Source: Lacinutrix mariniflava (GTDB lineage: Bacteria; Bacteroidota; Bacteroidia; Flavobacteriales; Flavobacteriaceae). From it: a stretch of DNA of 64,000 bases. Of this stretch, positions 2-36,228 are shown in pieces; position 1 is the first letter of the stretch; every line of letters begins with the position of its first letter. Location of the stretch: NCBI RefSeq assembly GCF_001418015.1, contig NZ_LIQG01000017.1, positions 186,001 through 250,000 of the forward strand, in the 5' to 3' direction. The position numbers were made by a program, and so were the translations under genes. The notes beneath the pieces are model-generated. The model made no database searches and had not been told where the DNA came from. It saw nothing but the letters and a program-made list of their open reading frames with translations.

Positions 2-250
2 CCTAGTACTATAGAACGTTCTAGAGAAGGAACTACGCTTTGGGTATTAGAGAATAATGGCGCAATTACTCCTAAAATAGTAACTCTTGGAGCGAGTGAT
101 GGTGTTAATGTAGAGATAGTAAACGGTATTGCTGAAGGAGATAAATTAGTATATAGCTTATTAGGAGTTTCTAAATCAGAAGCAGGAACAGACGCTAAAA
201 GTACAAGTCCATTTATGCCACAACGTGGAGGCGGTGGAGGAAAAAGATAA
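2..250 (+). CDS. Periplasmic adaptor subunit of an efflux pump (MacA/HlyD family), C-terminal part
   Basis: This reading frame is open from the window edge to the TAA at 248-250, giving about 82 residues. It ends in a run of glycines followed by Lys-Arg. The fragment contains a beta-strand pattern (TLWVLENNGAITPKIVTLG) typical of the membrane-proximal domain of RND/MacA-type membrane fusion proteins. The next gene starts 4 bp after the stop and encodes a MacB-type ATPase, followed by a MacB-type permease, so this is most likely the adaptor of a MacAB-like tripartite export system. The N-terminal part (lipoyl and hairpin domains) lies outside the window. The assignment rests on context plus the short beta-domain signature. 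Confidence 0.75.
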   Translation, partial: PSTIERSREGTTLWVLENNGAITPKIVTLGASDGVNVEIVNGIAEGDKLVYSLLGVSKSEAGTDAKSTSPFMPQRGGGGGKR

Positions 251-254
251 GATT

Positions 255-998
255 ATGAAAAAAGAAATCATAAAAATAGAAAATTTAAAACGTGAGTTTA
301 GGATGGGAACCGAAACGGTTCATGCCTTAAAAGGAATATCGTTTGATATAAAAGAAGGAGAGTTTGTAACAATAATGGGATCAAGTGGTTCTGGTAAAAG
401 TACAATGTTAAACATTTTAGGGTGTTTAGACCAACCAACTTCTGGACTGTATGAAATTGATGGTGTTAGCGTTAAAGATTTAAGCAGAAATGAATTAGCA
501 ACCATTAGAAACGAAAAGATAGGTTTCATTTTTCAATCGTATAATTTACTAGCAAGAACATCTGCTATTGAAAACGTAGAGTTACCATTGTTGTATAACA
601 GTAAAGTTAGTACTGAAGAACGAAGAGAACGTGCCATTAAAGCCTTAGAGATGGTTGGTTTGGGCGAACGATTACATCATACACCTTCGCAACTTTCTGG
701 TGGACAACAACAACGTGTAGCCATAGCAAGATCTTTAGTTAATAATCCAGTAATGATTCTTGCAGATGAAGCTACTGGTAACTTAGATACTAGAACCTCT
801 TATGAGATTATGTCGTTATTTCAGGAGTTAAACAAAAAAGGTATTACCATAACTTTTGTAACGCACGAACCAGACATTGCTACATTTAGTAGTAGAACTG
901 TAGTGTTAAAAGATGGCGAGATTATGCAAGATTATCAAAATCATAATGTGCAATCTGCAGCAACCGAATTAGCAAAATTACCTAAACAAGACCATTAA
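255..998 (+). CDS. ABC transporter ATP-binding protein, MacB/LolD type
   Basis: A 247-aa ATPase energising the permease encoded just downstream. All motifs are present: Walker [10 protein letters not shown] (residues 42-50), Q-loop FIFQSYNLL, signature LSGGQQQRV (about 147-155), Walker [13 protein letters not shown] (about 167-178) and the H-loop histidine in VTHE. I chose the ATG at 255 over an upstream in-frame ATG at 225. Starting at 225 would overlap the end of the adaptor gene by 26 bp, and family members begin close to the first beta-strand (KIENLKREF). It is spaced 4 bp after the adaptor stop and 2 bp before the permease. Lipoprotein release (LolCDE-like) is the alternative role, but the adaptor upstream favours efflux or export. 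Confidence 0.93.
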
Positions 999-1000
999 TT

Positions 1001-2221
1001 ATGAGACTATTAAATTTATTTAAAATCGCAACAAAGGCAATTATTCTCAATAAAACGAGAACTTTGCTTACTATGTTGGGGATTATTATTGGGGTAGCTT
1101 CTGTAATTGCAATGTTAGCCATAGGTGAAGGCTCAAAAGAAAGTATTCGTGAATCAATTTCTGCCATGGGATCTAATATGATTACCATTAAACCTGGAGC
1201 TGATGATAAAGGTGCTGTAAGAGGAAGTGGAGGTGATGTTCAAACCTTAACGCTTCAAAATTACGAAGTGATTAAAGAAAAAGCATCTTTATTAAGCTAT
1301 GTCACACCTGTTGTCAATGGCAGCGGACAAGTTATTAATGGTTCTAACAACTGGCCAAGTAGTATCTACGGTGTAAACCCAGACTATATTAAAATTAAAG
1401 TTGTAGGCTTACAAAGTGGTAGTATGTTTACAGATGCTGAGGTTAAATCGGCTTCTAAAGTGGCTGTTATTGGGCAAACCGTTGTAGACAACGTGTTTCC
1501 TGATGGGCAAGATCCTGTTGGTCAAATGATTCGTTTTAATAACATTCCGTTTAAAGTGATTGGGGTGTTAGAAGAAAAAGGAGAAAATACCTTTGGTCAA
1601 GATCAAGATGATGTAGTATTGGCACCATATACAACGGTACAAAAACGTATTTTGGCCATAGATCATCTAAATCAAATTATAGCATCTGCAATCAGTGAAG
1701 ATGAAGCATCTAAAGCGGTTACTCAAGTAACAGAACTTTTACGTTCTGAGCATAAGATACTAGATAATGAAGAGGATGATTTTACCGTAAAATCTATGGA
1801 AGAGTTAATTTCAACCTTTAGTTCTACAACAGAAATGTTAACCATTCTGTTAGTTGCTGTTGCTAGTATTTCTTTACTAATTGGAGGTATTGGTATTATG
1901 AATATTATGTATGTTTCTGTAAAAGAAAGAACTAAAGAAATTGGTTTGCGTATGGCAGTAGGCGCAAAAGGAGCAGATATTTTAATGCAATTTTTAATTG
2001 AAGCTATTTTAATTAGTATTACCGGTGGCATACTCGGTGTATTACTAGGATTAGGAGCCTCCGTATTTATAGAGCAATTTCTAGGCTGGCCAACAAGTGT
2101 TGCTTTGTATTCTATAATAATTTCCTTTGCAGTATGTGCTGTAACGGGTATTTTCTTCGGATGGTATCCTGCAAGAAAAGCATCCGCATTAGACCCAATA
2201 ACCGCTTTACGTTACGAATAA
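1001..2221 (+). CDS. ABC transporter permease, MacB/FtsX type
   Basis: A 406-aa inner-membrane permease with the MacB architecture. It has one N-terminal transmembrane helix (about residues 18-42, ending GIIIGVASVIAMLAIGEG), a periplasmic core of about 240 residues, then three C-terminal helices (about 283-310, 330-360, 372-395). The conserved FtsX-domain motif GGIGIMNIMYVSVKERTKEIG precedes the coupling segment RMAVGAKGADI. It is normally partnered by the ATPase immediately upstream and a periplasmic adaptor, both present here. In this organism ATPase and permease are separate polypeptides, unlike the fused E. coli MacB. The substrate cannot be read from sequence. The operon ends at the terminator just downstream. 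Confidence 0.93.
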   Translation: MRLLNLFKIATKAIILNKTRTLLTMLGIIIGVASVIAMLAIGEGSKESIRESISAMGSNMITIKPGADDKGAVRGSGGDVQTLTLQNYEVIKEKASLLSYVTPVVNGSGQVINGSNNWPSSIYGVNPDYIKIKVVGLQSGSMFTDAEVKSASKVAVIGQTVVDNVFPDGQDPVGQMIRFNNIPFKVIGVLEEKGENTFGQDQDDVVLAPYTTVQKRILAIDHLNQIIASAISEDEASKAVTQVTELLRSEHKILDNEEDDFTVKSMEELISTFSSTTEMLTILLVAVASISLLIGGIGIMNIMYVSVKERTKEIGLRMAVGAKGADILMQFLIEAILISITGGILGVLLGLGASVFIEQFLGWPTSVALYSIIISFAVCAVTGIFFGWYPARKASALDPITALRYE

Positions 2222-2289: not shown

Positions 2290-3456
2290 TTATGATTGAT
2301 GTTTTGGTTCAAAAATAAACTGAACGATTAAAATAGCTACTGATATTAATAAACCTAAAACAGCAACACCCTGCCAACCAAAATGTTGCCAAGCATACGC
2401 ACCTAAAAAAGTACCGAAAGCACCACCAATAAAAAAGCCCACCATATAAACCGTATTGACTCGATTTCTAGCTTCTGGATTCTTAGAAAAAATAATAACT
2501 TGGTTAGTAATATGTAAAACTTGCATCCCTAAATCTACTATAATTACGCCTAAGGCTAAACCAATTAAAGAGTATCCTGAAAAAAGGAAAATCACCCAAG
2601 AAATCATTAATAATACGGTAGAGAAGATAATCATACTTTTTCTAGTATATTTATCATTCATTTTACCGACAACGGTTGCGCCAAGTGCTCCAACAATACC
2701 AAAGACACCAAAGGCTCCAGCAACATCGCTATCGTAATTAAAATGATCTTCCATTAAAAAAACAAAGGTGGTCCAAAAAACACTCAACCCTGCAAAACCA
2801 AGTCCAGCGCGTAAAGCAGCCAATCGTAACGAAGGTTCTGTTTTAAAATAATGACCTATCGATTTTAATAAACTTCCGTAACTTCCTTTATAGTTGGGCT
2901 TAATTTTTGGTAATTTATATTGAAGTAAAATAAACAGCAATACCATTAATACCGTTGCTGCAGAAAACATAAAGCGCCACCCAAACCATTTTCCTACAAC
3001 ACCACTTATAACGCGACTTCCTAAAATACCAATTAGCAATCCGCTCATTACAATACCTAAGGCACGTCCTCGACCTTTATCGTCAGATAATTGAGCAACC
3101 ATTGGCACAAATAATTGTGGTAAGGCAGATGAAAAACCTATGAAAAAGCTACTTATAATCAAAAGGTATAAAGTACTTGATAATGATGCTGCAATTAGTG
3201 AGAGAATCATTAAAGCAAAATCGAATTGTAATATTTTTTTGTTGGAAACCTTATCACCTAAAGGGACAATAAATAATAAACCAAAAGCATAACCCAATTG
3301 TGTCGCCAGAGGCACATTACTTACAGCAGATTCACTAACTCCAAATTCTACAACCATTTGGTGCAGAAGTGGTTGGTTGTAATAGAGGTTTGCAACAACA
3401 AGTCCAGCAGATATACTCATTAAGTACAATACTGAATTGGATAAATTTTTACTCAT
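2290..3456 (-). CDS. MFS transporter
   Basis: A 388-aa protein with about 12 hydrophobic helices, so a typical major facilitator size. The first helix carries the ANLYYNQPLLHQM segment seen in a group of drug- or sugar-efflux-like MFS proteins. The loop between helices 2 and 3 has the Motif-A-like sequence PLGDKVSNKKI. The second half starts after a basic loop near residue 200 (KSIGHYFKTEPS). A role as a proton-driven exporter is inferred from the family; the substrate is unknown. It is monocistronic, and a -7 box TACCTTTG lies on the minus strand at 3500-3493. Confidence 0.88.
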   Translation of the reverse strand: MSKNLSNSVLYLMSISAGLVVANLYYNQPLLHQMVVEFGVSESAVSNVPLATQLGYAFGLLFIVPLGDKVSNKKILQFDFALMILSLIAASLSSTLYLLIISSFFIGFSSALPQLFVPMVAQLSDDKGRGRALGIVMSGLLIGILGSRVISGVVGKWFGWRFMFSAATVLMVLLFILLQYKLPKIKPNYKGSYGSLLKSIGHYFKTEPSLRLAALRAGLGFAGLSVFWTTFVFLMEDHFNYDSDVAGAFGVFGIVGALGATVVGKMNDKYTRKSMIIFSTVLLMISWVIFLFSGYSLIGLALGVIIVDLGMQVLHITNQVIIFSKNPEARNRVNTVYMVGFFIGGAFGTFLGAYAWQHFGWQGVAVLGLLISVAILIVQFIFEPKHQS

Positions 3457-3492
3457 ATTTTAAAACTTAATAACACTTTTGAATGTAGATGT

Positions 3493-3500
3493 CAAAGGTA
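3493..3500 (-). promoter_or_regulatory. -7 promoter box of the MFS gene
   Basis: Reading the minus strand gives TACCTTTG, an exact match to the Bacteroidota consensus TAnnTTTG, about 37 nt upstream of the start codon. No clear -33 TTTG is visible. Confidence 0.5.
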
Positions 3501-3671
3501 TTAAACTATAAAAATTTTATAAGTAACTAAGGGTCTAATTAATTAATATATTTTTAGTTTTTTTATTTCCAAATAGAGCGACTGTATTCATTTAGCTAAC
3601 CGACTTTTAAAGTAATTAAAGGAAAGATTTAAAATAATCAAATAAATGATTTCTAAAAATTTTAGTATTAT

Positions 3672-4634
3672 TTAACTTTCTCTACTTTTTTTAGAAGCGA
3701 CAATACTAATGATTAATATCTGTGTAGCATGAAACAACATGAGCGGCAAAAGAATAATACCAACCGATGCCATGTTGCCAAATAATATCTTAGAAAAAAC
3801 AGTACCATGTACTAATGATTTTTTAGTACCACAAAACTGTGCTGTAATTTGATCTTCGGTATTCAGTTTTAACTTTTTAGAAATAAAGCCTGTTAGTAAA
3901 AAAGCAATACCAAACAATACGATGACACCTATAAAAATAATGCCTAAATCTAAAAGAGAGACGGCACTAAAAATATTATCATTAAAAGATTCTGCAAAAC
4001 TTTTATAGATTATCAATAAGATAATAGATTTATCAAACAGCGTTAATTTACTCCTGTGTTTGTGAGCAAACTTCCCTAAAAAACGTTGTAATAAGAGCCC
4101 TAAAATTACAGGTAAAATAATTTGAACAATCAGTTTTAAATAGATCGCTGTAAAATCAAAATCTGTTTGAGCATCATTTATAAACAAGCCCATCCAAAGC
4201 GGTGTAATTGCAATTCCTATAATACCAGAAATACTTGCATTAAAAATAGCTGCAGGTATATTTCCTTTTGCCATAGACACCATAACAACGGACGATGATA
4301 CTGTAGAGGGTAATGCTGCCAAGAAAAAGAACGCTAACCAAATGGTTTCTTGTTCTTCATTTTGAAGTAACGGTCTAAACAATAAAACCAATAGCGGAAA
4401 CATTAAAAAAGTAGCACTTTGTACTAAAAGATGTAATTTCCAATTTTTAAGTCCTGCTTTTAACTGTGTAGGATTTAATTTTAATCCGTAGAAAAAGAAG
4501 ATAAGCGAAATTCCTACAGCGCTAATTGTGTCGATAGGAATTTTACTTTCCTGTGCTCCATATTGTGGAAAAAAATAAGCTATTAAAATAGTCGCAATAA
4601 TAGAAAGGACAAATTTATCAATCTTTAACTTCAT
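3672..4634 (-). CDS. Bile acid:sodium symporter-like transporter (SBF-like family)
   Basis: A 320-aa integral membrane protein with about ten helices. Features match the SBF-like/YfeH group related to the bile acid:Na+ symporters and arsenite exporter ACR3: the GISLIFFFYGLKLNPTQLKAGLKNWKLH stretch after helix 2, the LAALPSTVSSSVVMVSMAKGN segment in the first half, and the matching TAQFCGTKKSLVHGT segment in the second half. It probably carries an organic anion with sodium; the natural substrate is not known for this subgroup. The gene stands alone, and a 350-bp regulatory region separates it from the divergent LytS-type sensor gene. Confidence 0.88.
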   Translation of the reverse strand: MKLKIDKFVLSIIATILIAYFFPQYGAQESKIPIDTISAVGISLIFFFYGLKLNPTQLKAGLKNWKLHLLVQSATFLMFPLLVLLFRPLLQNEEQETIWLAFFFLAALPSTVSSSVVMVSMAKGNIPAAIFNASISGIIGIAITPLWMGLFINDAQTDFDFTAIYLKLIVQIILPVILGLLLQRFLGKFAHKHRSKLTLFDKSIILLIIYKSFAESFNDNIFSAVSLLDLGIIFIGVIVLFGIAFLLTGFISKKLKLNTEDQITAQFCGTKKSLVHGTVFSKILFGNMASVGIILLPLMLFHATQILIISIVASKKSRES

Positions 4635-4985
4635 GTTTGTTTTCTTTGTTTCTATATGCTAAATTAGGTGTTTTAGGTAGTAGATAATATTAATTCTGCT
4701 ACAATCATAATCAGTAAAGGTTGCTGAATTTTAAATGACATTCCAGAAGATATTGCTTTTGGTAGTAATGTGTGTTTTCATTTTATCTTTATAATAAACA
4801 AAAATTACTATCGATAAAATCTGAACATTGGTATAGCAAATAGTCCAAATCGTCTATTATGTAAAAAAATAAATAACAATTAGTTTTATATTTGACGTGT
4901 CCTCTTAAATAGGAATTATCACAACATTGATTATAATCTCTTTTAGTGTTATTCGATTTTATAACAAGACTTAAATCATAACCAA
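4635..4985. other. Divergent intergenic region
   Basis: A 351-bp region between the minus-strand symporter gene and the sensor kinase gene. Its right half holds the three-site operator and promoter of the kinase gene (4809-4894). From the promoter to the ATG at 4986 there is a leader of about 85 nt in which I see no ORF or strong hairpin. I found no convincing promoter for the symporter on the minus strand. Confidence 0.6.
4809..4894 (+). promoter_or_regulatory. LytTR-type operator array and promoter of the sensor kinase gene
   Basis: Three 7-bp motifs in direct orientation at exact 21-bp spacing: TATCGAT (4809), GGTATAG (4830), CGTCTAT (4851). A perfect -7 box TATATTTG (4887-4894) begins 36 bp after the start of the last motif. 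The same arrangement occurs at three other promoters nearby (6779, 7282, 8988). LytTR DNA-binding domains are known to bind direct repeats about two helical turns apart, so this is most simply the autoregulatory site of the LytTR response regulator encoded at 6027-6758. The assignment to that regulator is inference. Confidence 0.7.
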
Positions 4986-6023
4986 ATGCATAAAAATAAA
5001 AACATAACAATCTTTTCTCATTTATTAGTTTGGATTGTACTATTTAGTATGCCATACTTTTTATCTTATGGACAGGAACAAGATTTAAATAGGCTAGTGG
5101 CTCATTTTTGGATTCCATTAATATTTTCTGCAATTATATTTTATCTCAATTATTTTATATTAATCGATGCGTTTCTGTTTCCTAAAAAAATGATGCAGTT
5201 TGTTGTTATCAATGCTGTCATTATAATGATATTCTTATTTTTAAAAGAATTTATAGAAGATACTTATTTTTCAGATTTAGTAAAAAAACGCTCTGGTAGC
5301 AATGGAGGTGAAGGACGTCCTTTTAAGATGTTTGTATACATTCAAATACTATCTTATATGGCACCTTTACTATTTTCAATAGCAATAAAAACAACAAAAA
5401 GGTGGGTAAGAACAGAGACTGAACGTAAAGAAGCTATTAATTTTAAATTACAGTCAGAATTACAACATTTGCATTACCAATTACAACCGCATTTCTTTTT
5501 TAATTCGTTAAATAATATTTATGCTATGGTTGATATTTCACCAGATCAGGCCAAAACATCAATACATAGCTTAAGTAAATTAATGCGTTACATGTTATAT
5601 GAAACAAATGAAGAATCTATAGCGTTATCTAAGGAAGTCGAGTTTATGAAAAAGTATATCGATTTAATGAAGTTGCGAGTGTCTGATAAAACAGTGGTTA
5701 ATTATAGTTTTCCTTCAGAAGCAACAACAATTAAAATTGCACCTTTATTATTTATATCATTAATAGAAAATGCTTTTAAACATGGCGTATCGGCAAGTAA
5801 ACCAAGTACGATTAATATAAATATGACGTGTAATGATAAAACAGTTTTGTTTAGTATTGAAAACGATAATTTCCCAAAAAAAACAGACGATAAAAGTGGG
5901 TCTGGAATAGGACTTCTTAATATCGAAAAACGTTTAGAATTATTGTATCCAAATAGAAGTAGTTTTAAGACCTTTGTAAAAGACGAGCGTTATATTGCGC
6001 AATTAGAAATAGAAACACACTAA
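4986..6023 (+). CDS. LytS-type sensor histidine kinase
   Basis: A 345-aa membrane kinase. The first 145 residues have four hydrophobic helices with short loops and no periplasmic sensor domain. The His_kinase (LytS/YehU) phosphoacceptor box follows, with the histidine at about residue 169 in YQLQPHFFFNSLNN. The ATP-binding domain shows the N box (LFISLIENAFKHG, about 258-270) and a G box (GSGIGLLNIEKRL, about 305-317). It should phosphorylate the LytTR regulator encoded 3 bp downstream. The signal may be sensed within the membrane. The promoter carries the same operator array as the presumed target genes, which indicates autoregulation. Confidence 0.92.
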   Translation: MHKNKNITIFSHLLVWIVLFSMPYFLSYGQEQDLNRLVAHFWIPLIFSAIIFYLNYFILIDAFLFPKKMMQFVVINAVIIMIFLFLKEFIEDTYFSDLVKKRSGSNGGEGRPFKMFVYIQILSYMAPLLFSIAIKTTKRWVRTETERKEAINFKLQSELQHLHYQLQPHFFFNSLNNIYAMVDISPDQAKTSIHSLSKLMRYMLYETNEESIALSKEVEFMKKYIDLMKLRVSDKTVVNYSFPSEATTIKIAPLLFISLIENAFKHGVSASKPSTININMTCNDKTVLFSIENDNFPKKTDDKSGSGIGLLNIEKRLELLYPNRSSFKTFVKDERYIAQLEIETH

Positions 6024-6026
6024 ATT

Positions 6027-6758
6027 ATGAGTAATATAAAAATAACCTGTGTTATTGTAGACGATGAGCCTATGGCGCTTAATTTAGTAGAAAGTTATGT
6101 AGAGAAAACACCTTTTCTAGAGCTAAAAAAGAAGTGTAGTAGTGCTATTGAAGCTATGGAGTTTATAAAAACAGAACCTGTAGATTTATTATTTCTAGAC
6201 ATACAGATGCCAGATTTAACTGGTATTGAGTTTTCTAAAATGTTACCAAAAGAAACACGTGTAATTTTCACAACAGCATTCGACCAATATGCTTTAGAAG
6301 GTTTTAAAGTAGAAGCTTTAGATTATTTATTAAAACCTTTTGATTATGCCGAGTTTCTTGCTGCTGCAAATAAAGCACATGCTTGGTTTGAATTGCTAAA
6401 AGGAAAACAGCAGAGTAGTAATGTATCCAATGAAAAAGAATTCCTATTTGTAAAATCAGAATATAAGCAACTACGTATTAAGTTGGCTGATGTGTTGTAT
6501 TTTGAAGGGTTAAAGGATTACATTAAAATTTGGTTAAAAGATAACCCTAAACCTATTTTAACTTTAATGAGTTTAAAATCTTTGCAAGAAGAGTTACCCG
6601 AAACTCATTTTTTGCGTGTGCATCGTTCATTTATTGTGTCTTTAAAAAATATTGAAGTTATTGAGCGTAGCCAGATTATTATCAATAGACAACGTATTAC
6701 AGTTTCTGAGCAGTATAAACCTGCTTTTCTAGAATTTGTAAATAATAACTCTCTTTAA
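6027..6758 (+). CDS. LytTR-family response regulator
   Basis: A 243-aa regulator with a receiver domain (residues 5-120). The acidic pocket is D12-D13, the phosphoacceptor is Asp58 in LLFLDIQMP, the switch Thr lies in IFTTAFDQY and the Lys in LLKPF. A C-terminal LytTR DNA-binding domain (about 140-240) includes FVKSEYKQLRIKLADVLYFE and the family motif HFLRVHRSFIVSLKNI. It forms an operon with the LytS-type kinase 3 bp upstream. The direct-repeat operators at 4809, 6779, 7282 and 8988 are its likely binding sites, which would make its regulon the kinase operon, the EF-hand lipoprotein, the DUF6515-like protein and an ORF-less transcript. Confidence 0.93.
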   Translation: MSNIKITCVIVDDEPMALNLVESYVEKTPFLELKKKCSSAIEAMEFIKTEPVDLLFLDIQMPDLTGIEFSKMLPKETRVIFTTAFDQYALEGFKVEALDYLLKPFDYAEFLAAANKAHAWFELLKGKQQSSNVSNEKEFLFVKSEYKQLRIKLADVLYFEGLKDYIKIWLKDNPKPILTLMSLKSLQEELPETHFLRVHRSFIVSLKNIEVIERSQIIINRQRITVSEQYKPAFLEFVNNNSL

Positions 6759-6778
6759 AAATATACTATTTATTATTT

Positions 6779-6863
6779 GGTCTATAAAATCATGTGTTTG
6801 GTAGATTAGTAATTAGCAGATGTCTATTTTACACTTGAATATTTAGAGACGCAGTTATCTTTG
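6779..6863 (+). promoter_or_regulatory. LytTR-type operator array and promoter of the EF-hand lipoprotein gene
   Basis: Three direct motifs every 21 bp: GGTCTAT (6779), GGTAGAT (6800), TGTCTAT (6821). The -7 box TATCTTTG lies at 6856-6863, 35 bp from the start of the last motif. A TTG at 6835-6837 could be a -33 element. The transcript would start near 6870, leaving a leader of about 24 nt before the ATG at 6894. Confidence 0.72.
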
Positions 6864-6893
6864 CGGTAACATTAATAATAAAACAAATATATC

Positions 6894-7193
6894 ATGAAAA
6901 AAATACTACTAACCTTAGTCGTTACAGTAAGTTTATTAAGTTGTAATAGCGTTAAAAACGTAAATACATCAAATATTGCAAATGCAGCAACTTTATTAAG
7001 TTCATTAAGCTCCAACTCTACAGTTCAACAAATATCTAGTCTTTTTAGTTTATTAGATTCTAATAAAGATGAAGCTATTAGCTCTACAGAAGCAATAGGA
7101 TCTGTGTCAGAAAATTTTAATGTTTTAGATACAGACAGTAATTCAAGTTTAAACTTAACAGAGTTAACAGGTTTACTTGAGTTATTAAAGTAA
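6894..7193 (+). CDS. Small EF-hand lipoprotein
   Basis: A 99-aa protein with a lipoprotein signal peptide ending at Cys17 (SLLSC). Two 12-residue EF-hand-like loops follow: D55-x-N57-x-D59...E66, and D79-x-D81-x-N83-x-S85-x-N87..E90, both with ligand positions 1, 3, 5, 9 and 12 suited to Ca2+. Position 6 is not Gly in either, so affinity may be low. The region between is Ser/Asn-rich and probably helical. The protein is presumably anchored to a membrane facing the periplasm or surface. It stands between the two-component genes and the DUF6515-like gene, with the same operator array upstream and its own terminator, so it is a likely direct LytTR target. No exact family recognised. Confidence 0.8.
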   Translation: MKKILLTLVVTVSLLSCNSVKNVNTSNIANAATLLSSLSSNSTVQQISSLFSLLDSNKDEAISSTEAIGSVSENFNVLDTDSNSSLNLTELTGLLELLK

Positions 7194-7210
7194 TCTATTT
7201 AAGTAATTTT

Positions 7211-7242
7211 AAAAAGGTGCACTTAATAGTGCACCTTTTTTT
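7211..7242 (+). terminator. Intrinsic terminator of the EF-hand lipoprotein gene
   Basis: A perfect 12-bp stem (AAAAAGGTGCAC 7211-7222, GTGCACCTTTTT 7229-7240) with loop TTAATA and a T tail. Confidence 0.9.
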
Positions 7243-7281
7243 ATGCGGCATATTTAATAATTGTATAAGTTAATAGTATTC

Positions 7282-7365
7282 AATCTATAAAAACAATGTA
7301 TAGGTCGATACAATTTTGGCATTGGTCTATTTGCTTTTTTTTAGGGTTTTATCCCTGTACCTTTA
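7282..7365 (+). promoter_or_regulatory. LytTR-type operator array and promoter of the DUF6515-like gene
   Basis: Direct motifs every 21 bp: AATCTAT (7282), GGTCGAT (7303), GGTCTAT (7324). A -7-like box TACCTTTA (7358-7365) begins 34 bp after the start of the last motif. The box ends in A instead of G, and no -33 element is visible, as expected for an activator-dependent promoter. Confidence 0.68.
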
Positions 7366-7427
7366 AACTATAGAAGCAGTACAGAGTCTTAGTATTGTAA
7401 TTTAGTTTAACCTTAATACAATTAATT

Positions 7428-8006
7428 ATGAAATCACTTATTAAAATATACGTACTACCAGTGGCATTTTTGTTGGCATTAACCACACAAGTATCTGCAC
7501 AAACAACAAAACGTACAGTAGCTAAGACAAATACTAAAAAATCTGTTACTATTAAAAGAATACCAAGTAATAAAGTAACTTATAAAACACAGAAAAAGAA
7601 AGTAGTTTCTGTTAGAAATGTACCAAATAAAACTGTAGTTAATCATAAAGGGCAAAATTACTACTATGCAAACAATAAGTATTATACACAGTCTAGAGGA
7701 CGTTATATTGTTATTGCTCCTAAAGTAGGATTCAGAATTAAAACATTACCTGCAAATTATAAAAGAGTTCAGTTTAACAACGGTTTCTATTTTAACGTCA
7801 ATGGTACCTTTTACACACAAACAAATAATGAATATGAAGTTGTGGATCCAGAAGTAGGAACAATAGTTTATGAACTTCCTGAGGATTACGAAAAAGTAGT
7901 AATTAACGGTGAAACATTTTATGAGTATGCTAATATTTTATACGAAAAAGTACAGTACGATGGCACAAGGGCCTACGAAGTAGTAGGTATTATAGAGATG
8001 AATTAG
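7428..8006 (+). CDS. Secreted DUF6515-like protein
   Basis: A 192-aa protein with a clear signal peptide (residues 1-24, cleaved near VSAQ-TT). A basic Lys/Thr/Arg-rich segment (25-68) is followed by three related modules of about 35 residues. Each has the pattern tyrosine pair, short loop, second aromatic pair, then V-I/V-x-P-x-V-G and a leucine-proline stretch (YYYANNKYYT...IAPKVGFRIKTLP; FYFNVNGTFYT...VDPEVGTIVYELP; FYEYANILYEK). This repeated YYxxxGxYY...PxxG layout is what I associate with DUF6515. The function is unknown; a cell-envelope location is inferred. It is expressed from an operator-bearing promoter and closed by a terminator. A vestigial second copy of its transcription unit lies at 8988-9165. 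Confidence 0.75.
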   Translation: MKSLIKIYVLPVAFLLALTTQVSAQTTKRTVAKTNTKKSVTIKRIPSNKVTYKTQKKKVVSVRNVPNKTVVNHKGQNYYYANNKYYTQSRGRYIVIAPKVGFRIKTLPANYKRVQFNNGFYFNVNGTFYTQTNNEYEVVDPEVGTIVYELPEDYEKVVINGETFYEYANILYEKVQYDGTRAYEVVGIIEMN

Positions 8007-8033
8007 TTTTTTTTTGATTGGTTAATAGTGGAA

Positions 8034-8066
8034 ATGAGGATAGTTTTATAATTATCCTCTTTTTTA
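8034..8066. terminator. Intrinsic terminator after the DUF6515-like gene
   Basis: A 7-bp stem (GAGGATA 8036-8042, TATCCTC 8053-8059) followed by a run of T. It lies between convergent genes and may act on both strands. Confidence 0.75.
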
Positions 8067-8086
8067 TTTTAGACAAATTGAGGAAT

Positions 8087-8822
8087 CTAAAAAAACTTTT
8101 TCTCAATATCCTCAGGTTTTACAACTTCCGTTTTTGCTATAAAATTCATGAGAAGATAAATGGCCATTATATGACAAATAATGATTAGTACAGTAAAAGT
8201 TTTACTAAAGATTAAAAACTCATTAATTGGAACGAGTACAATTTGACAAAAAGTAAAAATACCAGAGGCTAGTAAAATTGTACCATTATTATAATTATCA
8301 TTTATATAAATAATTGCGAATGTAATGGTATAAACAATTAGACTTAAAGTGGCTAAAAAGATAAAAAAGATGTGATTATCCGGAATAGAGTATATAAGTA
8401 GTTCCAGAATATTATATAAAATATAGGTAATTAATATAACACTAACTATAACTGGGAAAGATAGTAACGACCTAACTTTTCCTTTATGTAAGTATTTTTT
8501 GAGAACAAATGCACAGCATATTAAATATAGAGAAGCGAATAGCGCAATCCATTCGAAACAGCTTTCAAAGCAATAAAGCGAGAGTATATCTGAAGTTAAT
8601 GTTGCAAATAAGGCAAACACAAAAAATGGGTTAGCCTTTTTTTAGTCAGACTTAAGTACTTTAAAATTATTGAAACAATTACAATAGGTGTTACATATAA
8701 TAATTGAGCCTTGTCAAAAAGAATGCTCACAACAATAGATGCCAAAAAGGAAAGGTAAAATATAATATCAATAGCATTCGTGTTTTTAAAAAAACGAGTA
8801 CTAATAGATTCTTTTTTTTCAT
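8087..8822 (-). pseudogene. Multi-pass membrane protein gene (YhhN-like?), disrupted by two homopolymer frameshifts
   Basis: The open part (8620 down to 8087) encodes 177 residues with about six helices. Reading upstream on the minus strand, the same protein clearly continues in another frame (DIIFYLSFLASIVVSILFD, then LYVTPIVIVSIILKYLS). The two frames join if the A7 tract (plus strand T at 8637-8643) had one more base, giving SLTKKKANPFF. A second single-base gain in an A8 tract (plus strand T at 8812-8819) would join the frame to an ATG at 8822-8820, giving MKKKESIST. Two one-base contractions therefore separate this from an intact protein of about 245 residues. The pattern of 7-8 helices with a conserved late acidic/Asn helix vaguely recalls the YhhN/lysoplasmalogenase family; that is tentative. 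Confidence 0.6.
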
Positions 8823-8987
8823 TTAATGAAGGCTTTACTGTGTTTGCATCAATCCAAAGATATTAATTAGTTTCTATACATGGAAATAGTATACAACTAT
8901 TATAATGTATAATAGTAACATAAAAGGAATTGAACACTATTTATAATGTGTTTTACAAATTAAGTCAATTGGTTAAATTCTCTTATT

Positions 8988-9051
8988 GGTAGACTTCATA
9001 TAGCTATTCGTCTATTTACTTTTTCAAATACATTTTATACTTATACATTTA
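8988..9051 (+). promoter_or_regulatory. LytTR-type operator and promoter without a downstream gene
   Basis: Two direct motifs 21 bp apart, GGTAGAC (8988) and CGTCTAT (9009). A -7-like box TACATTTA (9044-9051) begins 35 bp after the start of the second motif. The stretch from about 9000 to 9090 aligns with the DUF6515-like promoter and leader (7316-7427), for example sharing GTCTATTT, TTTAAACTA and a leader ending ATTAATT. No ATG follows before the terminator at 9124-9160. Confidence 0.6.
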
Positions 9052-9056
9052 AACTA

Positions 9057-9165
9057 TTAGAACAAAATATAGTCTAAATATAAAAATAAAGATTAATTGA
9101 TTTGGTTGGTTAATTAATAGTAGAAAAGGAGAATGGTTTTTTTATAACTGTTCTCCTTTTTGTTT
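9057..9165 (+). ncRNA. ORF-less transcript: vestige of a DUF6515-like unit or a small RNA
   Basis: From the predicted start (about 9057) to the terminator the unit is about 105 nt with no ATG. Its 5' half matches the leader of the DUF6515-like gene. From about 9095 it matches that gene's 3' untranslated region (GGTTGGTTAATTAATAGT versus GATTGGTTAATAGT) including the terminator hairpin. The whole coding sequence is thus missing while promoter, operator and terminator remain. It could be a dead remnant or a LytTR-controlled small RNA; sequence alone cannot decide. Confidence 0.35.
9124..9162 (+). terminator. Intrinsic terminator of the ORF-less unit
   Basis: A 10-bp perfect stem (AAAAGGAGAA 9124-9133, TTCTCCTTTT 9151-9160) followed by TGTTTTC. 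It is homologous in position and shape to the terminator at 8034-8066. Confidence 0.75.
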
Positions 9166-9208
9166 TCTAACAAACAGAAATAGTTACTATCGATAGGATA
9201 TAACATGA

Positions 9209-9486
9209 TGTAACACATGCGGGAGTCCTATTAGTTTGGACAATTCCTCAGAGAAAAGATGTAAAAACACAATTGAAGATTCAAATTTAGACTTAATTAT
9301 TAGATTACAGTTTGTATCATACTTTAGAAATAATGACGAAAATAACAAACTAGAATGTGGTTTTATTACTCAAGAATTAAAAGAAACTCAAAAAAAAGTA
9401 GTTCAAAAAAAAATGGGATTATTATTGAGGATACCGCCGAATGCATGTTAAATGAGAACTTGGTAATTCAATTGCATTATAATTGA
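9209..9486 (+). pseudogene. Decayed small ORF with a CxxCG start and a poly-A frameshift
   Basis: An open frame runs from 9209 to the stop at 9451, with only a TTG (9236) as a possible start. It begins with a zinc-ribbon-like stretch CNTCGSPISLDNSSEKRC. At an A9 tract (9405-9413) the reading could switch to a second frame that continues as NGIIIEDTAECMLNENLV and ends at 9486; one extra A would join them. No family recognised. The missing start codon and the frame switch suggest a remnant, consistent with the decay of the neighbouring genes. It may also be non-coding. Confidence 0.3.
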
Positions 9487-35775: not shown

Positions 35776-36228
35776 TTATATTTTCTTTACACGTACAGCG
35801 TTTAAGCCTTTCATGCCTTTTTCTAGTTCAAATTGTACTTTGTCATTCTCTGTGATTTCATCAATTAAACCACTGACATGACAGAAATATTTTTCTGAAT
35901 CTTCTGCATCGATAATAAAACCGAAACCTTTAGAAGAGTCGTAAAAAGAAACCTTACCTTTTCTAATAGGATCTACTTCTGGTAAATCTTCTTTTTTAGG
36001 TACGCCTAATACAATATTATCTGCTTTAATTTTAACTTTGTCTTCTGGATCTGGTGGAGTGTCTACCAAATTTCCATTGAAATCTACGTAAGCAAACTGA
36101 ATGCCTTGTGTACCATTCTCTGCTGCTTCAGCCTTTCTGGCCTCCATTTTCTTTCTCTTGTCTTCACGCTTTTTAAGGCGCTTTTTCTCTTTTTCTAATT
36201 TGTTAAATGTCTGTTGCGACTTTGCCAT
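35776..36228 (-). CDS. Cold-shock domain protein with basic N-terminal extension
   Basis: A 150-aa protein. The N-terminal third is a lysine/arginine/glutamate-rich helix (QTFNKLEKEKKRLKKREDKRKK). A flexible middle leads to a C-terminal cold-shock domain (about 87-150) with the RNP1-like KGFGFIIDAE and RNP2-like YFCHVSGL motifs. Such domains bind single-stranded RNA or DNA and melt secondary structure. The extended form is common in Flavobacteria. Single gene with its own terminator. Confidence 0.9.
   Translation of the reverse strand: MAKSQQTFNKLEKEKKRLKKREDKRKKMEARKAEAAENGTQGIQFAYVDFNGNLVDTPPDPEDKVKIKADNIVLGVPKKEDLPEVDPIRKGKVSFYDSSKGFGFIIDAEDSEKYFCHVSGLIDEITENDKVQFELEKGMKGLNAVRVKKI

Follow-up and report, generated by a model that had tools for sequence, protein, structure and literature searches.

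The relevant passages of three publications (PMC11347149, PMC6193735, PMC4847170) describe the binding sites of LytTR regulators as mostly two repeats with spacers of 10-13 bp, and most of these regulators as binding upstream of -35 and activating. The one-component LytTR regulators RcoM and CoxC, which control CO oxidation, are presented in excerpts of PMC11347149 as having three 8-bp direct repeats with spacers of 12-13 bp. Here we analyse a comparable element, three short sites in 21-bp steps (a triplet), at the promoters of a Lacinutrix mariniflava (Flavobacteriaceae) locus that encodes a LytS-type sensor kinase and a response regulator with a LytTR domain. The stretch studied (the window, 64,000 nucleotides) corresponds to positions 186001-250000 of contig 17 of a genome of 4.0 Mb in 32 contigs.

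Triplets at the promoters of a LytTR locus

The promoters of the kinase gene, of a gene for a small protein with EF-hand-like loops (EF gene) and of a gene of the DUF6515 family each carry three 8-bp sites in exact 21-bp steps with 13-bp spacers (Table 1); sites, spacing and position are read directly from the DNA. An initial annotation had listed eleven GGTCTAT-type sites, at these three promoters and before a unit without open reading frame (ORF-less unit), and all eleven are present at the coordinates it gave. The repeat motif stands, but its exact letters do not, as the consensus is looser: in 14 half-sites (the eleven of the window and three before tolC, see below) only the T at the third and the A at the sixth position are invariant, while two letters each occur at the second (G/A), fourth (C/A) and fifth (T/G) positions and the seventh is mostly T. 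The four promoters had also been described as alike, which is correct for the three with full triplets; at the ORF-less unit the first site is degenerate and the other two are good, with a triplet score of 14.0 versus 21.8-27.9 at the other four promoters of this genome. The distance of 34-36 bp proposed between the start of the promoter-proximal site and a TAnnTTT(G/A) box was found at all four. Bacteroidota promoters have a -7/-33 layout.

The in-window promoters of the initial list hold, but a further one, outside the window, was not in it: a genome-wide search for 21-bp steps identified a triplet that starts 111-112 bp upstream of tolC. This is the first gene of a tolC-macA-ABC-macB operon that starts 2.3 kb before the window and has its last two genes inside (225-2221). 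In this genome, the tolC box (AATATTTG) deviates from the pattern.

The three-site pattern is real and goes beyond chance. Three GTMKA cores in 21-bp steps, with no more than one mismatch allowed, are found five times in the window (0.15 expected), and none of 100 shuffles reaches five; one of these places is an overlapping register at the EF gene and another lies on the minus strand at 36041. A fuller triplet pattern, derived from the very sites that it scores, has three places with zero mismatches in the window versus 0.18 expected at up to two mismatches. The pattern of intact triplets matches the whole genome without mismatch at four places (tolC, kinase, EF and DUF6515), at none with one mismatch and at 29 with two. 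The genome scan that the initial annotation had suggested thus returns exact matches only at the three in-window promoters and at tolC; as the pattern was built from these sites, this indicates absence elsewhere and not significance. Candidates for further regulon members elsewhere in the genome were rejected as noise: places with three mismatches were fewer than with the reversed control (67 vs 186; 343 vs 429). A search at 20-bp steps serves as spacing control: it gave ten places, all with three mismatches (15 for the reversed control) and none at these promoters.

An independent chance test comes from other genera of the family, in which 15 loci were scored with a matrix made from this genome only. 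At a score of 16, the coding strand of these loci carries 21 triplets with 21-bp spacing (adjacent registers of one promoter may count twice) and the opposite strand none; each of the other spacings between 14 and 31 bp yields 0-1.

Conservation in relatives is likewise directly observed. Among 198 other genomes drawn from the family, 15 have a regulator with 76-93% identity, as do 3 of 12 other members of the genus. In 16 of these 18 loci, tolC, macA, ABC, macB, kinase and regulator have the same direction, some with extra intervening genes; in the stretches read, L064 is without the tolC-macB row and L073 without both this row and the kinase. DUF6515 genes are present in ten of the 18 loci and EF genes in five. 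All 17 loci with tolC, this genome included, have a triplet before it (scores 14.7 to 26.0; G208 22.5), and triplets precede 10 of 11 DUF6515 genes and 5 of 7 EF genes (misses L068, L060 and L062). The cores are 82% identical across genomes, while the spacers are 46% identical in 16 tolC promoters and 43% in 10 DUF6515 promoters. Matched boxes start 34-36 bp from the third site, barring second matches at 29 and 30 in the two kinase promoters. The constant phasing, orientation and position noted initially therefore also hold in relatives. In two loci, about 3 kb of extra genes with similar start sequence lie between kinase and regulator (L066:6453-9373 and L094:6869-9850).

The promoters also predict each other. 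A matrix without tolC sites places the tolC promoter among the top three of its locus in 15 of 16 genomes and first in 11 (at L094, the stretch is partial and an adjacent register was ranked). With a matrix from tolC and kinase sites, the DUF6515 promoter is in the top three in 9 of 10 loci, and with a matrix without EF sites the EF promoter is in the top three in 3 of 6. Since these matrices find unlike promoters, the element is common to them.

A triplet at the kinase gene is found only in genomes that separate this gene from the operon. In 16 of 16 genomes with the kinase gene after macB and co-directional with it, no triplet precedes the kinase gene (best score 9.1), while a triplet is present in both genomes with a separated kinase gene (this genome, 21.8; L064, 17.9). 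The separation is caused by two reversed transporter genes here, which are absent between macB and kinase in the 16 relatives that have both co-directional, and L064 has no tolC row nearby. Feedback would thus persist in both layouts. In most relatives it would run via the tolC promoter, because kinase and regulator are downstream in the same direction; in this genome, with two reversed genes between operon and kinase, it would run via the kinase's own triplet. The DNA after the terminator of the ORF-less unit (9149-9195) and that upstream of the kinase triplet (4773-4816) agree at 36 of 47 positions, with TTACTATCGATA at the end of the shared stretch, which suggests that the kinase operator may derive from a rearranged module end. 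At L064:3957, with no tolC row nearby, a tolC-type triplet (score 20.4) precedes a 174-aa secreted-looking protein; this may be reuse of a tolC-type promoter.

Association with the regulator and proposed regulation

Exact triplets co-occur with the regulator: they were found in 14 of 199 genomes of the family, namely in 11 of the 16 with the regulator (at least 76% identity) versus 3 of the 183 others. Of the 20 exact-triplet places in these genomes, 16 are at the regulator locus; the reversed pattern has seven places.

LytTR domains are frequent, with 18 matches in this genome and at least one in 47 of 61 genomes drawn from the phylum; one match of this genome (L119, G000:C21:22979-23239) has an internal TAG. 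The other 17 LytTR genes of this genome have no triplet of score 16 at 21 bp within about 1.5 kb, and two weaker ones (15.2 and 14.1) are present there. Around 29 LytTR loci of the phylum, which are the best-scoring matches, no triplet reaches 16 within the same distance and one reaches at least 13. One operator code for all LytTR genes of the phylum is hence unsupported (0/17 own and 0/29 phylum loci at score 16).

Sister regulators with 40-53% identity have a coding-strand triplet of score 16 in 5 of 14 cases (L045, L046, L048, L049 and L055). At L046, L048 and L049 it begins at the end of the regulator gene, upstream of the next gene, which encodes a serine hydrolase (PF00144, tested at L048; the other two by likeness), and L055 has one triplet before the kinase and another before a gene that resembles a TonB receptor by eye. 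The L045 triplet falls within coding sequence, and at L050 there is one on the opposite strand. At scores of at least 13, the 14 loci have 11 matches at 21 bp (two of them inside regulator genes, and those of L052 and L058 on the opposite strand to the regulator) and none at 17-20 or 22-26 bp. In a tree of regulators, 22 rows marked as motif-bearing are separated from 13 other LytTR proteins of this genome with support of 97/94; the tree is weak, with 11 rows in no group, several long branches and four genes of this genome (L125, L130, L132 and L133) left out.

The idea of a LytTR regulon beside its regulator, put forward in the initial annotation, is supported by the relatives, by the co-occurrence with the regulator and by the local confinement of the triplets, with binding itself predicted from sequence. 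We consider it likely that the triplets are operators of the adjacent LytTR regulator and that they define a cis-linked, autoregulated and activating regulon. In the proposed circuit, for which we infer binding, phosphorylation dependence, activation over repression and the signal, the membrane kinase would phosphorylate the regulator, which would occupy all three sites next to each other on the same helix face (21 bp are two turns), with the third site just upstream of the -33 region. The bound regulator would recruit RNA polymerase to a TAnnTTTG-type promoter with its box 34-36 bp beyond the third-site start. Predicted targets are the tolC-macA-ABC-macB export operon, the EF-hand-like lipoprotein and the secreted DUF6515 protein, and the kinase-regulator pair would be switched on too, as positive feedback. 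The signal is perhaps envelope or export stress.

Several observations weigh against this interpretation. Five of the 16 regulator-bearing genomes have no exact triplet, with four of the five having a looser one at tolC, and in G117, which carries the regulator, the stretches read show no tolC, no kinase and no triplet. No coding-strand triplet of score 16 is present within the 3.7 kb examined at 9 of 14 sister regulators. A good triplet is lacking at 2 of 7 EF and 1 of 11 DUF6515 genes, and the box pattern fails in 4 of 16 tolC promoters (including this genome), 3 of 10 DUF6515 promoters and 1 of 5 EF promoters.

With the same regulator and the same sites, transcription could instead be repressed until a signal lifts the repression. 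CoxC, a LytTR protein, is described in passages of PMC11347149 as a repressor acting from three direct repeats; however, its repeats overlap the -35 box, whereas the third site here ends about 27 bp before the TAnnTTTG box, and most LytTR regulators are said in the same source to activate from upstream of -35. In addition, all tolC boxes that match the pattern begin with CA and not TA (12/12), which fits a promoter that needs an activator. We regard repression as unlikely. The triplets could also be true operators of a different protein, for example another LytTR regulator, as there are 17 others to choose from and the assignment to this one is a prediction. Exact triplets, however, co-occur with and adjoin this regulator, none of score 16 is near the other 17, and some of its nearest sisters have adjoining triplets of their own; we regard a different binder as very unlikely.

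Chance, or mere common ancestry of the promoters, could be considered, as the sites are short and loose and the first consensus was picked by eye. The spacing and strand controls contradict chance, the spacers drift while the cores stay, and unlike promoters predict each other, so that this explanation is hardly credible; random occurrence, named at the outset as what would refute the regulon, is contradicted by the same evidence. Activation by the adjacent regulator is the interpretation that we retain.

The ORF-less unit and the genes of the locus

The ORF-less unit had been taken initially for a regulon promoter, and its sites and box are indeed present; what had been missed is that the unit is most likely a scar left by deletion of a second DUF6515 gene, as judged from alignments. 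The DUF6515 promoter and leader align with the first part of the unit over 77 columns (73%), and the 3' end and terminator of DUF6515 with its second part over 83 columns (71%); both parts align likewise with congeners. The congener locus L095 has another scar with a different junction (by eye), located between a second EF gene with its own triplet and a Peptidase_S74-type gene: two promoter-like sites run directly into the final DUF6515 codons. The scars indicate that a second EF-DUF6515 module probably once existed and lost its DUF6515 copy through different deletions. The scar could be transcribed. With two good sites, a box at the proper distance and a 126-nt hairpin (z -3.1; 1 of 200 shuffles folds equally well), the unit could be seen as a functional small RNA of the regulon. 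Against this stand the alignments, the differently joined scar at the matching place in L095, the degenerate first site and the absence of an Rfam match at E 1, and the hairpin may merely be a DUF6515-type terminator; a small RNA is therefore rather improbable, and we prefer the deletion scar.

Two neighbours of the unit appear truncated. A 71-aa frame (9236-9451) matches Peptidase_S74 (chaperone of endosialidase) and looks like what remains of the C-terminus of an approximately 775-aa protein, which is intact in two congeners (59.7% identity) at the matching place (L094:12154-14478 and L095:15171-17501). The 177-aa membrane protein at 8087-8620 on the minus strand is probably truncated too, as its relative (L061:14687-15508) has 273 aa at 57% identity.

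The regulator consists of a receiver (PF00072, 73.9 bits, cut-off 30.2) followed by the LytTR domain (PF04397, 61.7 bits, cut-off 22.6); the best 60 of its 99 PDB matches by sequence are all on, or start in, the receiver part. The kinase matches PF06580 with 85.8 bits (cut-off 25.2). For its membrane part, no named LytS sensor domain was found (Pfam at E 0.01 gives PF06580 only, NCBIfam nothing at 0.001), and the protein is therefore called LytS-type and not LytS. The DUF6515 model is of middling confidence (pLDDT 77, six sequences; best PDB match at E 0.36), and a literature search for DUF6515 returned only an unrelated plant paper.

Table 1. Genes, triplets and promoter boxes of the locus (window positions unless a contig is given)
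Feature	Position	Strand	Details
tolC triplet	contig 17, 183597-183646		outside window, 2.4 kb before it; found by genome-wide 21-bp-step search
ATPase gene	225..998	+	third of tolC-macA-ABC-macB operon
MacB-like permease gene	1001..2221	+	last of tolC-macA-ABC-macB operon in this genome
Two reversed transporter genes	2290..4634	-	between macB and kinase; MFS 2290-3456, SBF-like 3672-4634
Kinase triplet	4809..4858	+	sites 4809, 4830, 4851
Kinase box TATATTTG	4887..4894	+	36 bp from third-site start; second, overlapping box match at 30
LytS-type sensor kinase gene	4986..6023	+	His_kinase PF06580
Response regulator gene	6027..6758	+	proposed binder; receiver PF00072 and LytTR PF04397
EF gene triplet	6779..6828	+	sites 6779, 6800, 6821
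EF gene box TATCTTTG	6856..6863	+	35 bp from third-site start
EF gene (small protein, EF-hand-like loops)	6894..7193	+	Pfam score just below cut-off; lipobox-like start by eye
DUF6515 triplet	7282..7331	+	sites 7282, 7303, 7324
DUF6515 box TACCTTTA	7358..7365	+	34 bp from third-site start
DUF6515 gene	7428..8006	+	PF20125; modelled as three repeated four-strand units after a disordered start
ORF-less unit sites	8988..9016	+	decayed triplet; sites 8988, 9009; first place 8967 degenerate
ORF-less unit box TACATTTA	9044..9051	+	35 bp from last-site start
ORF-less unit	9052..9166	+	DUF6515-like leader fused to DUF6515-like 3' end and terminator; coding part gone

Comparison with described systems

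At the DNA, the regulator resembles RcoM and CoxC but is not one of them. Shared are the LytTR domain and three 8-bp repeats in steps of about 21 bp, and RcoM is said in the passages cited above to act from upstream of -35, likewise the position proposed here. RcoM and CoxC combine sensor and LytTR domain in one protein, whereas a two-component pair of kinase and receiver-LytTR regulator is present here; their repeats are given as TTCNNGCA or TTNNNGCN at proteobacterial sigma-70 promoters, in contrast to RTMKATW-type sites with a Bacteroidota-type box. The LytTR Regulatory Systems (LRS), such as HdrRM and BrsRM, to which the pair studied here does not belong, in the passages of PMC6193735, likewise have direct repeats just before the promoter and autoregulation through them, but these are two 9-bp repeats, mostly 12 bp apart, and the partner is a membrane inhibitor instead of a kinase acting on a receiver domain. 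YpdAB of E. coli (YpdB in passages of PMC4847170) is similar in its kinase, its receiver-LytTR regulator and its direct repeats with 11-13 bp spacers; YpdAB-type systems have two repeats of other sequence, and there are three here. A coevolution study reports a mutated LytTR regulator in Flavobacterium johnsoniae lines with lower antibiotic susceptibility (PMC10197871); this was not used as support because the TolC of that study is part of another pump and its authors describe the effect of the LytTR mutation as unknown.

The genes for TolC, a MacA-like adaptor, ATPase and a MacB-like permease lie in one row as for MacAB-TolC pumps. Unlike in those, ATPase and permease are separate proteins, and scores are below the equivalog cut-offs (MacA 137.9 of 342; MacB 263.3 and 303.2 of 966); judged by these matches, the pump is MacAB-like only. 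BtsSR of E. coli is a LytS/LytTR two-component system, and the regulator is not BtsR: it scores 121.6 bits against the NCBIfam equivalog NF008677 (cut-off 246).

Literature searches returned no recognised mapped operator for a Bacteroidota LytTR regulator, which is weak evidence with most subscription journals outside their coverage. Known already, from the passages cited, are three-repeat LytTR operators (RcoM, CoxC) and the autoregulation of LRS via promoter-proximal repeats; new here are a conserved triplet for a two-component LytTR regulator, another promoter type, and a compact local regulon with its cargo. Tentatively, and with doubt slightly prevailing, we propose that a clade of Flavobacteriaceae-type LytTR regulators shares one code: three RTMKATW-like sites exactly 21 bp apart, about 35 bp from TAnnTTTG and near the regulator gene. 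The cargo would vary (MacAB-like pump and envelope proteins, serine hydrolase, TonB-receptor-like gene), and the kinase would gain an operator when the operon breaks. If true, two-component LytTR proteins of the phylum would have their first such code, with a working unit of three sites and not two. LytTR regulators are common in this group, and the promoter geometry could be used for reading related systems; a readable code would connect the export pump with an orphan kinase and two proteins whose function is unknown, as a single circuit open to testing.

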